Shown here: piece after piece, positions 11,587 through 28,942 of the stretch
Numbering within the stretch: the first letter of the stretch is position 1
Layout of the letters: each line of letters opens with the position of its first letter
The notes under the pieces: model-generated
Seen by the model: only the letters and a program-made list of their open reading frames with translations
What the model was told of the DNA's origin: nothing
Database searches by the model: none
Translations under genes and position numbers: made by a program
IMG/VR virus record: IMGVR_UViG_3300006925_000092
Span: 1-28,942 of that record
Direction: 5' to 3' (one strand)
DNA: 28,942 bases
DNA from: a virus

Positions 11587-11600
11587 GTTATCCTCTTAAA

Positions 11601-11631
11601 TAAAAAGAGAGACCCCCGAAGGAGCCTCTCT
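11601..11631 (-). terminator. Intrinsic terminator downstream of the capsid gene
   Basis: In the minus-strand transcript the arms at 11631-11621 and 11616-11606 form an 11-bp stem, counting two G-U pairs. A UUCG tetraloop (11620-11617) closes it and a run of U follows. This is a classic strong Rho-independent terminator at the place of T7 T-phi, between the capsid and tail tube A genes. It would lower transcript for tail genes relative to capsid. Confidence 0.9.
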
Positions 11632-11641
11632 AATCGTTAGC

Positions 11642-23717: not shown

Positions 23718-24030
23718 CCAAATCCTCGATTAGGTAGAATGTTGTTGCGTAGCTCGAGATGAACTGGAGCTGCTTTTGTGTCAGGACAACGGTTTGAAGG
23801 ATGAGGTTATCTTCATCGACTTTTTCGCCAGCCTCGATGTCTTCTTCGGTGGCTTGTCTGATCTGCATCAGTAAGAATTTGTCATCTTCAATGATGTATC
23901 CCATTAGAGCTGGGATGGTGTTGTCGTGGGTGTCATCATCCACTTCGTAAATGTTGGCGACAGTCAGATCGATTTTCTGTGACTGCTTTTTAGTAAAGCC
24001 CTTGAAGTGGATTACGTTGTCAGATGTCAT
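23701..24030 (-). CDS. Acidic hypothetical protein between RNA polymerase and SSB
   Basis: The start MTSDNVIHFKGF (109 aa) has AGAGG 8 nt upstream and overlaps the stop of the preceding 59-aa gene; an ATG 9 codons earlier lacks a site. The protein is acidic, with a central ALMGYIIEDDKFLLMQIRQATEEDIEAGE and a C-terminal FYLIEDLDEISE. I do not recognise a family. Its position, early in the operon behind the phage promoter, is where T7 keeps small host-modifying or regulatory genes (1.1-2). Confidence 0.7.
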   Translation of the reverse strand: MTSDNVIHFKGFTKKQSQKIDLTVANIYEVDDDTHDNTIPALMGYIIEDDKFLLMQIRQATEEDIEAGEKVDEDNLILQTVVLTQKQLQFISSYATTFYLIEDLDEISE

Positions 24031-24199
24031 CGAACATCCTCTGTAAAAAATGTTCACAAGTGTAAGTGTCTGACATGGCTAATGCCGGATACAGACGCTC
24101 AAAGGTTTCTTCATTGATCCCGTTGATTGCTTTACGGGTCTGGAAGGCATTGCGGATAATCTCCACAACAGGATGTAGTTGATCGAAGTTATGTTTCAT
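24020..24199 (-). CDS. 59-aa hypothetical protein, first gene after the RNA polymerase
   Basis: A short ORF runs from MKHNFDQLHPVVEIIRNAF to HFLQRMFDDI and ends in TGA, which overlaps the next ATG. It has a weak purine-rich site (AAGGGA) upstream and fills the otherwise empty space between promoter and operon. The sequence is partly amphipathic helical and no family is recognised. Support comes from the stop/start overlap and from the promoter-like element 12 bp before its ATG. Confidence 0.6.
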   Translation of the reverse strand: MKHNFDQLHPVVEIIRNAFQTRKAINGINEETFERLYPALAMSDTYTCEHFLQRMFDDI

Positions 24200-24210: not shown

Positions 24211-24233
24211 CCCTTCTAGTGGGCGTTGTAAGT
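24211..24233 (-). promoter_or_regulatory. Candidate phage RNA polymerase promoter, copy A
   Basis: This 23-bp element occurs again at 26757-26779 with one mismatch and the same orientation. In minus sense it contains ACTTACAAC, then CCCACTAGAAGGG. The CACTA core and the purine-rich GAAGGG start resemble T7-family promoters (T7 CACTATAGGG, SP6 CACTATAGAAG). It lies between the RNA polymerase stop and the first gene of the replication operon, like T7 phi1.1. Confidence 0.7.
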
Positions 24234-24258
24234 CGTAAGGCTCCTGTATATGTAAGTA

Positions 24259-26739
24259 TTATGAAAAGAAAAACTCACTGTCGAAGACCCCATCGATATC
24301 CAGCTCACCTTTTTCTGGGTATAGCTCATGCTCGAATGGCAGGGACTGGTACAGCTCCGCTAGCGGATCAGTCTTGACATACATATCCACAAAGCTCGGC
24401 TTCACGCACTTTTCGATGAACGTCGGCATCTGCGCTGCGTGGACTCCGAAGCTGTCATGGATCATAGCAAAGCTCTTGATACCTTCCTCGACCCCACGGT
24501 TCACCGCCATGCGAAGATGGGTTGCATCGAGGCTATGAACGAAGTTAGGGGCAACAGACAACGCCATGTCTTTAGAATCCAGCTTCGGTGTGTCATTGTA
24601 GTACGTAAGCGAAACCCTTCCGTTCATGTAAGTATCTTGTCGATGTTTTTTCTGGGACGCTCGATACTGTACGACCTGAAAGCCGTCAGGTGTTACCCAA
24701 GTCATCCGCTTGTCATATCCAGAGCAGTCGAGCTTGTTGTGGTACTTAGTCCACTCCCGTGCCACTGAGGACAACCAATCCATGGCTATCTTACCTTTGA
24801 CCACAACCTGATCGATAGCTGTCCAGATGTGACGGGCCAGCATGATGACCATCTCTTTGTCTTTCGACTTGTCCCACATCCGCTGGTGACCAGCCTTGAG
24901 CTTGTCGTCGTATCCCTCTTGGGTGTACTCCATGCAGCTCGAGAACTTACCGGCGTATGGGATGACCATGGTCTGACGCTTGGTCATCTTCCTGTCGATA
25001 CCAAACTTGACCCACAGGTGGGCATCAGCCGACCCTTCAGCCAGCAGTAGCTCCTTGGTCACATCAGCCACATCTTGGTAGATGTCTTGCCGAGGTAATC
25101 CTGGGATCAGGTTTACACTACGTCCACCAACCTCATCCCGCAGCATCGCTGAATAGTGCTGAAGGCCGCTGCAAGTTGCATCAACGTGGCAGGGGAAGTG
25201 TGAGATGAAAGCCTCACCGTTTGCGTTGGTCTCGAGGAAGTCTGCCCATTCCATGGCAAAGCTCAGGAACATGAATGGCTCATCGGCATCAAGCCACTCG
25301 AGATTTTTACGCCAATCCCTGCCGCACTTCACGATCCATTCTTCGTTGGCGACAACCCAGTCAGCCCGATCCTGAAGGGACACCTTGTCGTTCCCCCAAG
25401 CATTCGCTCCGGCCACAGCAAGCCAAGCTGCCTGTTCCATGTCGCTGATCTCAATACCGTTGGCGAACTCCAGCATCGATTTACCAAAGTCAGCCGCCTG
25501 TGGATTCAGGAACGCTGGGAGCGGGTAGGCTCGGCCCCTGACATCGAGGTTGTGCGGAAAGTATATCTCATGGAACGGCTGAAACTTACGGGCGATCTGT
25601 AACGTATAGATCACCGACAGCCGCTTCGAGATGTCCTCACGGTTCCTCGAGCGGATCAGGAAGACCTCGAGGTTGTGCTTTTTCTTTACATCCTCGTCAG
25701 TATCGTACCCGACAGGTTTCGGTGGTATCTGCACCTCATCAACCGTTGGGATTCCCCCTCGGTCACCTCCAAGCTCGTTGAAGACATAATCGAGGGCATC
25801 CACCATGCGGCGTTTGACCCGCCAAGGGGTCTCTTGGATGGCGTTGATGGCCGGAAGGGTCTGAGACCAATCCATGTGCATCATACGCTCAATGTCCCGC
25901 TTACCGGCACCTTTGATGATGCTGTACTTCTTGACCTTGCCTCGGTTCATGTACCCGCCTTTGAACAGGTTGAACTCAGCAGACCATGGGCGAGGCTTGA
26001 CGACCATCGGTAGGTACAACGTGAAATCCATCACAGACCGCTTACAAGCCTCCTCAACGTGATCTACCAGCTCCTTGGTGGGTAGGATGTACGTTTTGGT
26101 GTGGTCGTACTCTATGAGGCCCGTAGCCTCCATGAACAGGCTCATCATTGCATAGCCAATCAGCAAGCACTCACGCTGCGACCAGCCACGCCACTCGACC
26201 TGTTCCGCATCGAAATACATCCGGTATGTGCGAAGACGCCAATGGGGAGGGTAGGTGCGTCGATCCATGTCCTTGGTGATCTTGTCCAGAAGGTTCTTTC
26301 GTTCCTCGACGGAACCGAAGTGCTTCAGACGCCACTCAGTGTGAATCGCATCGACTGCCTTGATGCAGAACGATGTGCGTTTGATTGGCTTGTTCGAGAA
26401 TAGCGGAATCAGGTTGTACACCTGTTTCACGAAAAGGTATGAGATGACCTCTGGATCGAGACCAGTTTGACGTAGGTATTCAGCAGCCCTTGCTCCCCGA
26501 CCACCACTCTTCCTAGACAGGAACGAGATTACAGTCTCAGCAAAACGACGCTGGGTAGAAGAGACATAACGTGACCCGATCTTAGAATCAGACCAAGACC
26601 CTCTAGAGTTAGACTTTAAGTTATCTTTAGTTAATCTAGAGTACGAATTATCATATATCTCTGTTTCTATTTTTTCTTGCAAGACGCTATTACTATAGTC
26701 TGTGCCATAAGCTGACTCTAAGTAATCTTTAGTATCCAT
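24259..26739 (-). CDS. DNA-dependent RNA polymerase, single-subunit T7 type
   Basis: This 826-residue polymerase (T7: 883) transcribes the phage's middle and late genes. Catalytic residues align with T7: Asp520 in HVDATCSGLQHYS (Asp537), Lys587 and Tyr595 in MTKRQTMVIPYAG (Lys631, Tyr639), and Asp762 in IHDSFG (Asp812). PNFVHSLDATHLR precedes the last. The C-terminus ends FFFS, comparable to T7 FAFA. The promoter specificity loop (about 690-712, QYRASQKKHRQDTY) differs from T7, so the promoters should differ too. AGGAG lies 9 nt before the ATG. The first 50 codons are AT-rich, with TTA at Leu7, Leu36 and Leu41 and AGA at Arg35 and Arg46, unlike the rest. Confidence 0.97.
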   Translation of the reverse strand: MDTKDYLESAYGTDYSNSVLQEKIETEIYDNSYSRLTKDNLKSNSRGSWSDSKIGSRYVSSTQRRFAETVISFLSRKSGGRGARAAEYLRQTGLDPEVISYLFVKQVYNLIPLFSNKPIKRTSFCIKAVDAIHTEWRLKHFGSVEERKNLLDKITKDMDRRTYPPHWRLRTYRMYFDAEQVEWRGWSQRECLLIGYAMMSLFMEATGLIEYDHTKTYILPTKELVDHVEEACKRSVMDFTLYLPMVVKPRPWSAEFNLFKGGYMNRGKVKKYSIIKGAGKRDIERMMHMDWSQTLPAINAIQETPWRVKRRMVDALDYVFNELGGDRGGIPTVDEVQIPPKPVGYDTDEDVKKKHNLEVFLIRSRNREDISKRLSVIYTLQIARKFQPFHEIYFPHNLDVRGRAYPLPAFLNPQAADFGKSMLEFANGIEISDMEQAAWLAVAGANAWGNDKVSLQDRADWVVANEEWIVKCGRDWRKNLEWLDADEPFMFLSFAMEWADFLETNANGEAFISHFPCHVDATCSGLQHYSAMLRDEVGGRSVNLIPGLPRQDIYQDVADVTKELLLAEGSADAHLWVKFGIDRKMTKRQTMVIPYAGKFSSCMEYTQEGYDDKLKAGHQRMWDKSKDKEMVIMLARHIWTAIDQVVVKGKIAMDWLSSVAREWTKYHNKLDCSGYDKRMTWVTPDGFQVVQYRASQKKHRQDTYMNGRVSLTYYNDTPKLDSKDMALSVAPNFVHSLDATHLRMAVNRGVEEGIKSFAMIHDSFGVHAAQMPTFIEKCVKPSFVDMYVKTDPLAELYQSLPFEHELYPEKGELDIDGVFDSEFFFS

Positions 26740-26756
26740 GCTCAGATTCTCCTCTG

Positions 26757-26779
26757 CCCTTCTAGTGGGTGTTGTAAGT
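26757..26779 (-). promoter_or_regulatory. Candidate phage RNA polymerase promoter, copy B, upstream of the polymerase gene
   Basis: It equals copy A at 22 of 23 positions, in the same orientation. Its GAAGGG end lies about 20 bp before the RNA polymerase ATG, just ahead of the AGGAG site. If it works as a promoter of the phage enzyme, the polymerase gene activates itself. Confidence 0.65.
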
Positions 26780-26929
26780 TTTTACAGAAGCAGTGTGACC
26801 CCGCTTCTAAGTCCCTTACATATGTGTAAGTGTATATCCAGATCTAAGGCAATGCAGTGATTACAACGCCTTAGTGATGTTTATGTATGTGTAAGAGAGT
26901 CTGAAAGGATTTTAAGACTCTTGTGAAGG
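26780..26929. repeat. Non-coding repeat-rich segment between tRNA and RNA polymerase
   Basis: No credible ORF is present. I see three perfect inverted repeats: AGAAGC/GCTTCT (26786-26808), CTAAGGC/GCCTTAG (26844-26874) and AGAGTCT/AGACTCT (26896-26921). There is also a CTTACA-TATG-TGTAAG palindrome (26815-26830) and an exact 10-bp direct repeat TATGTGTAAG at 26821 and 26886. None has a U-run that would make it an intrinsic terminator. The segment is probably an attP arm with integrase or host-factor sites, or a regulatory leader for the RNA polymerase. Confidence 0.6.
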
Positions 26930-27016
26930 TGGTGGGGACACCGAGACTCGAACTCGGAAGTCATTGCTGACTACGGGTTTTAAGCCCGTTGCGTTTACCA
27001 ATTTCGCCATGCCCCC
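26930..27016 (-). tRNA. tRNA-Leu (anticodon UAA), complete with CCA; likely contains attP
   Basis: The 87-nt sequence folds as a class II tRNA: 7-bp acceptor stem (GGGGGCA with TGTCCCC, one G-U pair), D arm GCGAAATTGGTAAACGC, anticodon stem ACGGG/CCCGT with loop CTTAAAA (anticodon TAA at 26982-26980), long variable arm AGTCA/TGACT, T arm with GTTCGAGTC, and an encoded CCA end. It lies between integrase and RNA polymerase. Marine T7-like phages with integrases carry a tRNA fragment here as the attachment core, for example a tRNA-Leu match in cyanophage P-SSP7. Here the whole gene is present, so it may also be a working tRNA. Confidence 0.93.
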
Positions 27017-27058: not shown

Positions 27059-28039
27059 TCATCCTTGCTCCAAAGCATCAAGACAGACATCCAGATCACT
27101 GGGTGCTAAGTGACTGTAACGCATGGTCATTGCTATGGTCGAGTGACCCAGCCAGACCTGTACACGCCTAATGTCCACACCGGATTGCACAAGCCTCGAA
27201 GCACAGGTGTGACGCATGACATGAGGGACAACATCATTGCCCAGCCCTGCCATGCCTCTAGCCTTCTCGAAGATCGAGCGGTAGGTGTACCTGTTGATGT
27301 GACCGAAGGGCTTGTCAGTGTCCTTTGGGCAACGCTCGAGGATGCTACGGCAACGCTGGGTCATCGGGATGGTACGAGGCTTGCCGCTCTTGGTTAGCCA
27401 CAGGGTGACCTTGCCGTCACTGTAGTCAGCCCAAGTAAACTTCAACGCCTCACCCATGCGGAACCCTGAGTCGATCAGGAATGCAGTGAAGTCACCATAC
27501 TCAGGACGCATGAAGGTCAGCTTCTCGAGCAGACGGGCTTCCTCGGCATCTGTGAGGAACCTGAGCCGACCTACGCCTTCCTTTCGGCGGTAGGCTGAGA
27601 TGTCAGGCTTGTCCTTCAAGACCTTTGTCTTCTTGGCCTGTGTCAGCACTTTCGACAGGGCTGCTAGTTTCCTGTTGATTGTACCGTCAGCGTTGCGTCG
27701 TTGCTTCAGCTCACTGACGATGGTCTCGAGGTGCTGGTCAGTGAACATGGACACAGGGATGTCATTGACGATCTGTGCGATTTCCCTGAGCTGTGCCACA
27801 ACCTTCTGCCCATGGTCAGTGTCACCCCACAGCACAGGATGGATGCGCCTGTAGTACTGTGTGAAGGTCTCTGAGCTAGGGGCTACACCCTCGGAGCTGA
27901 TAGGCTCACCTCGGGCTATTGCTAGCCGTACAGAGGCTTCCCACAGCTCGGCCTCGGCCTCAGTTGCGAAGTTCTTTCTGTGGCGTTGGTTGCCACTCTT
28001 TACGTCGCCTTGCCATTGCTTCCCACGCTGTCTCGCCAT
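27059..28039 (-). CDS. int: Tyrosine recombinase integrase
   Basis: The start chosen gives MARQRGKQWQGDVKSG (326 aa), with GGAG 8 nt upstream; the frame is open further up (to 28198) but only inside the neighbouring gene. The N-terminal arm-binding part is followed by a core-binding domain (about 55-150) and the catalytic domain. Catalytic residues are Arg194 (DSGFRMGEAL), His273 and Arg276 (HVMRHTCASRL), His299 (WLGHS) and the nucleophile Tyr308 (MRYSHL). The set is complete, so the enzyme is probably active. It should integrate the phage at a host tRNA-Leu gene, as the adjacent tRNA suggests. It lies among the early genes, so it could be expressed by host RNA polymerase before the phage polymerase. 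Confidence 0.95.
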   Translation of the reverse strand: MARQRGKQWQGDVKSGNQRHRKNFATEAEAELWEASVRLAIARGEPISSEGVAPSSETFTQYYRRIHPVLWGDTDHGQKVVAQLREIAQIVNDIPVSMFTDQHLETIVSELKQRRNADGTINRKLAALSKVLTQAKKTKVLKDKPDISAYRRKEGVGRLRFLTDAEEARLLEKLTFMRPEYGDFTAFLIDSGFRMGEALKFTWADYSDGKVTLWLTKSGKPRTIPMTQRCRSILERCPKDTDKPFGHINRYTYRSIFEKARGMAGLGNDVVPHVMRHTCASRLVQSGVDIRRVQVWLGHSTIAMTMRYSHLAPSDLDVCLDALEQG

Positions 28040-28274
28040 TGCGGTGTCTCCATTGTTGCCAGTATTTGTTGCGGAAGTGAGGTGAAAATATCTGTGCTGA
28101 ATATTCACTGTTCGCCAAGTAGAGGGTCTTCTTGTAGTAAGCCCCTTGTTTCTGTAAGTCTTGGGCCAACAAGTAATCACCTTCCCATTCTGCCTCACTC
28201 GAGGCGAACATCATGAAGCTGTGTGCCTCATGGGTGTTCAGTCCGTGATCATTTGCAGGTAAATACTCTTTCAT
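27960..28274 (-). CDS. 104-aa hypothetical protein overlapping the integrase start
   Basis: The start MKEYLPANDHGLNTHEAHSF is preceded by AGGAAAGG at good spacing; a further in-frame ATG 16 codons upstream lies in the MarR-like gene. The product is polar and rich in Trp, Tyr and Arg near the end (WQQWRHRNGETAWEAMARRRKEW). I recognise no family. It overlaps the MarR-like gene by 26 bp and runs 80 bp into the integrase gene in another frame. Ribosomes reading it pass over the integrase SD and start, so it could couple or hinder integrase translation. Confidence 0.6.
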   Translation of the reverse strand: MKEYLPANDHGLNTHEAHSFMMFASSEAEWEGDYLLAQDLQKQGAYYKKTLYLANSEYSAQIFSPHFRNKYWQQWRHRNGETAWEAMARRRKEWQPTPQKELRN

Positions 28275-28575
28275 GAAATGCCTTTCCTGCTTTGGTAAGT
28301 TTAACGACTCTGTAGCGTTCATCCTGGGGATCAGGATACGACTCGATAAACTCTAAGCCTTTAGCCTGTTTCCGTTTATCCTTCCACTTTCCCCACCATT
28401 TGATACACCGTGATGCTGTGGCGTTGCTGAGACCAAGGTATTGCTCCAGATCGTACTGGTGTTTACCTTCATTCTCCGCAACCCACATCAGCGTCAGGAT
28501 GTATGTCAGAGGCATGGCTGGATACAAGTTGTAGAATTGTTCAAGAACCCCCTTTATTTGGATCGTATGTTGCAT
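28249..28575 (-). CDS. MarR-like winged-helix transcriptional regulator
   Basis: The start MQHTIQIKGVLEQF (108 aa) has GGAAGG upstream; an ATG 6 codons earlier overlaps that SD and is unlikely. The fold reads as MarR: MPLTYILTLMWVAENEG (helix), YDLEQYLGLSNATASRCIKWW (HTH with recognition helix SNATASRCI), then a wing DPQDERYRVVKLTKAGKAF, which matches the MarR DxRxRxxxLTxxG pattern. Members bind DNA as dimers and usually repress. Here it lies between the first early gene and the integrase and is the only clear repressor candidate in the window, so a role in lysogeny or early-gene shut-off is likely but unproven. Confidence 0.82.
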   Translation of the reverse strand: MQHTIQIKGVLEQFYNLYPAMPLTYILTLMWVAENEGKHQYDLEQYLGLSNATASRCIKWWGKWKDKRKQAKGLEFIESYPDPQDERYRVVKLTKAGKAFHERVFTCK

Positions 28576-28609
28576 TGATGTACCTTCCCTCATTTATAGT
28601 CCGTAGGGC

Positions 28610-28626
28610 GACTCATTCACGACTCA
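28610..28626. promoter_or_regulatory. Direct repeat upstream of the MarR-like gene, possible operator
   Basis: GACTCA occurs twice, at 28610-28615 and 28621-28626, exactly 11 bp apart (one helical turn), just before the MarR-like gene. It may be an operator for autoregulation. MarR sites are usually inverted repeats, which weakens the case. Confidence 0.3.
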
Positions 28627-28848
28627 ACTCAAGAAACCAATCTTGCTTACCGATACGTAAGTAGACCCCATAGGAAAGTATTTCAAGTTGAAAGTATGTA
28701 GTGATATTGATTTTGAAATACGGTTCGTCCATACGGTTCTACCTTTCGAAGAATTTAATGGTGGGGCTGTAGGCCAATCGGCATCCGCACGAATACAGTA
28801 CAGATTACGCTCGGACTTAGCCTTTCCGATATAAGTTGCGTGTTCCAT
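28624..28848 (-). CDS. 74-aa hypothetical early protein
   Basis: It begins MEHATYIGKAKSERNLYCIR, with GGAG 7 nt before the ATG, and ends SVSKIGFLS. The protein is slightly basic with beta-strand-like stretches and no recognised family. It is the first gene in transcription order in this window, where T7-like phages place small proteins that act on the host, such as anti-restriction or host RNA polymerase inhibitors. That role is inferred from position only. Confidence 0.6.
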   Translation of the reverse strand: MEHATYIGKAKSERNLYCIRADADWPTAPPLNSSKGRTVWTNRISKSISLHTFNLKYFPMGSTYVSVSKIGFLS

Positions 28849-28879
28849 AGTTGCTCCAAAAGGATACGGTTGTGTGAAT

Positions 28880-28912
28880 CTTATACATGGGGGCAGTGGG
28901 TGCAGATGTCAA
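28880..28912 (-). promoter_or_regulatory. Possible host sigma70-type early promoter
   Basis: In minus sense a perfect TTGACA (28912-28907) is followed by TATAAG (28885-28880). The 21-bp gap is longer than the usual 17; an 18-bp spaced ATGTAT is the alternative -10. It lies about 32 bp before the first early ATG, where a host-read promoter is expected. Confidence 0.35.
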
Positions 28913-28942
28913 GGGCTTACAGAAGTAAATATATAAATGGAA

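Follow-up and report, generated by a model that had tools for sequence, protein, structure and literature searches.

The two 23-bp elements that flank the RNA polymerase (RNAP) gene of the window (the whole 28,942-nt stretch of DNA analysed here, from a marine T7-like phage) are very probably cognate promoters for the T7-type RNAP that the phage itself encodes. This assignment was made from sequence comparison, because the element was kept at both sites in the relatives and its core covaried with residues of the specificity loop of the polymerase. The upstream copy lies at 26757–26779 (ACTTACAACACCCACTAGAAGGG, read from 26779 to 26757; −17 at 26779, +1 at 26762, +6 at 26757) and the downstream copy at 24211–24233 (ACTTACAACGCCCACTAGAAGGG, read from 24233 to 24211; −17 at 24233, +1 at 24216, +6 at 24211). 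The original prediction had described a match at 22 of 23 positions, a common orientation and a location in gaps before gene starts, all of which were confirmed together with the coordinates; the strand, unnamed there, is the minus strand for both copies, as it is for all genes of this region. The only mismatch is an A/G difference at −8. The upstream copy ends 17 nt short of the start codon of the RNAP gene (ATG at 26739) and the downstream copy ends 11 nt short of the next ORF (24020–24199, minus strand; ATG at 24199), the first one downstream of the second promoter, which encodes 59 aa and lacks a family match. The leaders predicted from +1 are short, 23 and 17 nt, respectively. Repetition in the same orientation in noncoding gaps ahead of genes is characteristic of promoters of T7-type RNAPs.

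In a repeat search over the whole window, the two copies proved to be the best and the sole near-perfect dispersed two-copy repeat. Identity within the remaining dispersed two-copy families was at most 90% over 20 nt; tandem coding repeats made up the longer families. No further site with three or fewer mismatches to the 23-mer was present anywhere in the window, where the next best 23-mers had 8 mismatches. Coding repeats of 21-nt period were seen at 973–1470 in a tail-fibre-like ORF.

Aligned from −17, the 23-mer is as long as the T7 and SP6 promoters (−17 to +6) and has a G at position 18, that is, about 17 bp precede a G start and the initial transcribed region follows, as in promoters of T7-type RNAPs. 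The layout is the canonical 17 + 6, divided into −17 to −13, −12 to −5, −4 to −1, and +1, with ACTA at the position of TATA. The reduced TATA spacing claimed originally arose from mis-registration: aligning CACTA of the element to CACTA of T7 had made the spacing look shortened. The same plan of 17 bp plus G was found in the promoters (phi1–phi8) of the Pseudomonas phage LUZ100 (OP329100) in the form of AATTACCACACAGTTAT followed by GGA, and phi1 and phi2/phi3 of this phage were mapped by ONT-cappable-seq (PMC10134795). The element does not conform to the T7/SP6 consensus (CACTATAG core at −7 to +1 with TATA at −4 to −1), as it has ACTA at −4 to −1 and variable bases at −7 to −5. T7 RNAP reads the −12 to −5 stretch with its specificity loop. 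By the proposed mechanism, −17 to −13 (ACTTA) would be the upstream AT-rich contact, the specificity-loop hairpin would recognize −12 to −5 from the major groove, and −4 to −1 (ACTA) would melt, with the RNA beginning at the G of GAAGGG.

Specificity loop and its covariation with the promoter core

The RNAP gene (24259–26739, minus strand) encodes a T7-type single-subunit enzyme of 826 aa (Pfam RNA_pol, 1.8e-85; phrog_414, 6e-205). Its structure model, obtained from a 72-sequence alignment (pLDDT 89; a 10-sequence version with pLDDT 34 was unusable), matched T7 RNAP on its promoter (1cez) with a Z of 41.7 and an rmsd of 4.0 over 609 residues. The single-subunit sequence and fold and the T7-like gene order place the enzyme among the T7-type RNAPs of Autographiviridae. 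The specificity-loop hairpin (residues 694–720, encoded at 24580–24660, minus strand), with 698, 700, 702, 708, and 710 as the putative base-reading residues, was recognized from the T7 alignment, the covariation with promoter bases, and the predicted beta hairpin, whose strands were modelled at 694–703 and 709–720 (pLDDT below 50 at 708–710). With the gap of the T7 alignment moved into the hairpin turn, residues 700, 702, 708, and 710 correspond to R746, N748, R756, and Q758 of T7, respectively.

Conservation was examined in 16 IMG/VR contigs with 80–100% RNAP identity (L005–L018, L037, and L043), where repeated entries were counted once (L004 and L005 are one contig, as are L003 and L013, and the re-fetches L033–L036 and L044 repeat others). 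The element was kept at both sites in all 16 relatives wherever the contig covered the site. In the nine loci covering both flanks, the −12 to −5 stretch was identical between the two copies except in L005, where the copies, the same as in the window, differ at −8 (A/G). Between phages this stretch occurred in seven forms, namely CAAC(A/G)CCC, CCGCCACC, CCGCCCAC, CCGCCCAT, TCACACGT, CAACCCGT, and CCCCTCAT, and the flanks at −17 to −13 (ACTTA) and −4 to +3 (A C/T TA GAA) were fixed across these relatives. Pair-finding, for which the shuffle maximum was 16, gave at least 17/20 in 10 relatives of 46–57% identity and likewise in several at 35–40%; nothing clear was obtained in many other distant relatives. 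Repeated elements on both sides of the RNAP gene were seen in L046, L047, L048, L053, L061, L067, L080, L092, L097, L105–L109, L113, and L116, and distant relatives of this kind form a ready set of predicted polymerase–promoter pairs.

To relate the core to the enzyme, all pairings of a promoter position with one of the 250 variable RNAP columns were scored, with no contacts assumed. The top-scoring columns were residue 700 for −7, residue 710 for both −8 and −10, and residue 698 for −6, all of them in the loop. Provided that the columns are independent, four of four tops would fall within the 17 loop columns by chance with a probability of about 2e-5, and the permutation p was 0.006 for 700/−7 and 0.0005 for 710/−8. 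Several columns tied for −9, including loop residue 708. The independent evolutionary changes were few, about three at residue 700 and about four at residue 710. In the literature on T7, R756 contacts −9, Q758 contacts −8, and N748 contacts −10/−11, the loop reading −11 to −7. The links 700/−7, 708/−9, and 710/−8 agree with T7, and the aligned residues 708 and 710 reproduce the T7 contacts at −9 and −8.

Simple residue rules could be derived from these links. Arg700 goes with C at −7, and Leu, His, or Gln at 700 goes with A in the close relatives; Arg708 goes with C at −9 and His708 with A (one case, L039); and at −8, Arg710 goes with C, Ser or Asn with A or G, and Gln with T. In the relatives of 46–57% identity, where the promoter register, anchored by a conserved A at −13, is less certain, Arg700 was again accompanied by C at −7 and Gln700 by T, not A. 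In the Roseobacter phages CRP-403, CRP-118, and CRP-804 (OR420752, OR420741, and OR420734, respectively), the residue at the position of 700 is not Arg, and −7 varies among the copies. A simple rule linking residue 702 (T7 N748) to −10/−11 failed, as the same Asp occurred with AA, CA, or CG. The core is matched to its cognate loop through residues 698, 700, and 710, and residue 702 does not account for −10/−11.

The location of the copies in short gaps just before start codons would also suit host sigma-70 promoters or leaders for ribosome binding that resemble each other through duplication. We regard this as extremely improbable, since the ribosome-binding site follows downstream of the conserved part and since the core varies together with the RNAP loop residues, a coupling that would be needless for a host RNAP or the ribosome. 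Moreover, no sigma-70 hexamers (TTGACA and TATAAT with 16–18 nt spacing) were found at the copies.

Promoter number and the window/L007 pair

The original prediction that a third copy is absent was borne out by weighted scanning of the window and of three long relatives, in which each gave two full-score sites and all the rest stayed at or below the shuffled maxima. It had further been supposed that the late promoters must be more divergent or lie outside the window, but this was not supported: only the same two copies were found in G003 (38 kb, from integrase to maturase B) and in G002 (35 kb, from maturase through the early region to the tail genes), which jointly span the known gene set. 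The region upstream of the capsid gene was considered as a late promoter and rejected as a cognate one, for although conserved it does not vary along with the promoter core. Weak or host-type promoters may be present elsewhere. Among the more distant relatives, L040 has two copies, L116 three, and L113 four (in a 21-kb fragment). Two promoters are few compared with the six to seven copies per genome in the CRP phages and the eight in LUZ100. A G+C-rich hairpin followed by a T run was noticed directly after the capsid gene, at about 11590–11640; it is kept in the relatives, and its position matches that of the late terminator of T7.

The window and its relative L007 share about 96% DNA identity across 11.8 kb. 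Nine of the 826 RNAP residues differ between them (M198L, S200T, E430Q, K478N, A510V, S695A, R700L, S710R, and V750I), three of which (S695A, R700L, and S710R) lie in the loop (P = 0.0012). Both L007 promoters share four substitutions relative to the window, −11 A>C, −10 A>G, −8 A/G>C, and −7 C>A, and have no others. The changes at −7 and −8 go as the residue rules say, the pair itself being among the cases behind these rules. The co-change, which comprises few independent events, is strong evidence that promoters and polymerase would work as a functional pair.

We see an even chance that the complete set of phage-RNAP promoters in this phage group consists of just these two, both adjoining the polymerase gene. 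Polymerase and promoters would then make up a self-contained module, about 2.6 kb long, that could switch specificity in nature in a few steps, as the comparison of the window with L007 suggests. If so, the usual barrier, that many scattered promoters have to change together, would be absent. When T7 with a re-targeted RNAP was evolved in the laboratory, there were promoters that consistently did not evolve (PMC6171733). The window/L007 pair bears on how an RNAP and its full promoter set shift specificity together: in this near-isogenic natural pair, a nine-residue RNAP difference accompanies the same four changes in each promoter, which makes it possible to reconstruct the step and measure it. 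The seven natural cores with their matched loops could also be useful as orthogonal transcription parts.

Neighbouring genes and the lysogeny region

Downstream of RNAP, the genes for SSB, endonuclease I, primase-helicase, DNA polymerase, exonuclease, portal, scaffold, capsid, and tail follow in the same order as in CRP-403, CRP-118, and CRP-804. Because LUZ100 phi1 is at the same place as the upstream copy and phi2/phi3 are at the same place as the downstream copy, we propose by analogy that host transcription first makes some polymerase, which would then transcribe its own gene from the upstream copy. This positive feedback would commit the phage to lytic growth, and the downstream copy would drive the middle and late genes (replication and virion) as one long unit.

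In T7, promoters just downstream of gene 1 act as the primary replication origin. The downstream copy occupies the same place relative to its RNAP gene, and it could accordingly be asked whether the copies are cognate promoters of which the downstream one is mainly such an origin. An origin of this type would need a transcription start, too, and it would add to the promoter role instead of replacing it; we consider it exceedingly unlikely as the principal function of that copy.

Between the integrase and RNAP genes lies a complete tRNA-Leu (TAA) gene (26930–27016, minus strand), the probable attachment site, which is found at the same place in the relatives; its sequence varies between them. 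It is followed by the genes of a tyrosine integrase (27059–28198, minus strand; Pfam Phage_integrase, 2.5e-24) and a MarR-like regulator (28249–28593, minus strand; Pfam MarR_2, 7.5e-05, below the gathering score; phrog_9665, 4e-22). Compared with L007, identity falls sharply inside the integrase gene and beyond (window 28200–28942), the rest being about 96% identical, and this drop marks a recombination boundary at the lysogeny module. A search of genome contigs for a host link, by an RNAP relative or an exact match to the 32-nt 3′ part of the tRNA, gave no hit.

The MarR-like protein raises the question of whether the 23-mer is its operator, with a copy on either side silencing the RNAP gene in lysogens. 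The MarR protein of LUZ100 has been proposed to act near the RNAP promoter, and the window and L007 are unlike in their MarR gene, too (81% identity). A MarR operator is expected to be an inverted repeat that follows the recognition helix of the repressor, but the element lacks such symmetry, phages with different cores have an identical putative MarR recognition stretch (NATASRCIKWWG), and the core tracks the RNAP loop residues instead. In addition, a better operator candidate exists separately, the near-palindrome CTTACACATATGTAAG (26815–26830, minus strand), which precedes the RNAP promoter by about 35 nt and has looser matches at 26880–26895 and 28646–28661, that is, at sites upstream of the RNAP and MarR genes (4 matches at 3 places versus 0.15 expected). 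An operator role of the 23-mer is therefore highly improbable, and CTTACACATATGTAAG may be the operator of the MarR-like repressor, which would control the lytic switch through it, with the 23-mers acting as the promoters.

Comparison with known systems

The −17 to +6 layout is common to the window element and the T7 and SP6 promoters, and the GAAGGG start is shared with SP6. T7 R746, R756, and Q758 are the counterparts of residues 700, 708, and 710 and are assigned to the same base positions. The differences are TATA versus ACTA at −4 to −1, the different −12 to −5 stretch, the presence of two promoters only, and a hairpin turn of the window loop that is two residues shorter than in T7.

The gene order of the three CRP phages is that of the window phage, and elements of the same plan (TCACCyTTwyTAG cores) occur before and after their RNAP gene; promoters were neither annotated nor discussed in the CRP genome paper. 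These phages differ in their RNAP (35% identical), the higher copy number, the variable −7, and the absence of the tRNA.

In LUZ100, the MarR, integrase, tRNA-Leu, and RNAP genes are located in the same region as in the window phage, but its tRNA gene is on the other strand and separates MarR from integrase. Its promoters share TTAC at −15 to −12 and CAC at −9 to −7 with the window, and Arg at the position of residue 700 is likewise combined with C at −7. Pair-finding applied to LUZ100 gave 16/20, at the mapped phi1 and phi3. Besides the number of promoters, LUZ100 differs in the −6 to −1 bases and in its RNAP, which is about 33% identical. The elements had originally been regarded as a new promoter class fitting a divergent specificity loop; the tie to the loop is supported by the covariation of the core with loop residues, while "new class" was too strong, since LUZ100 and the CRP roseophages share both the plan and the places.

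T7-type promoter/RNAP pairs are already known, as are specificity set by the loop and the siting of promoters next to the RNAP gene. What is new, as far as the literature examined shows, is this family of promoters with its layout of two copies, together with the natural switch between near-isogenic phages. The general idea of reading promoter specificity from phage genomes is shared with Zhu et al. (NAR 2025, gkaf140), who reportedly decoded the promoter specificity of T7-like RNAPs in this way.
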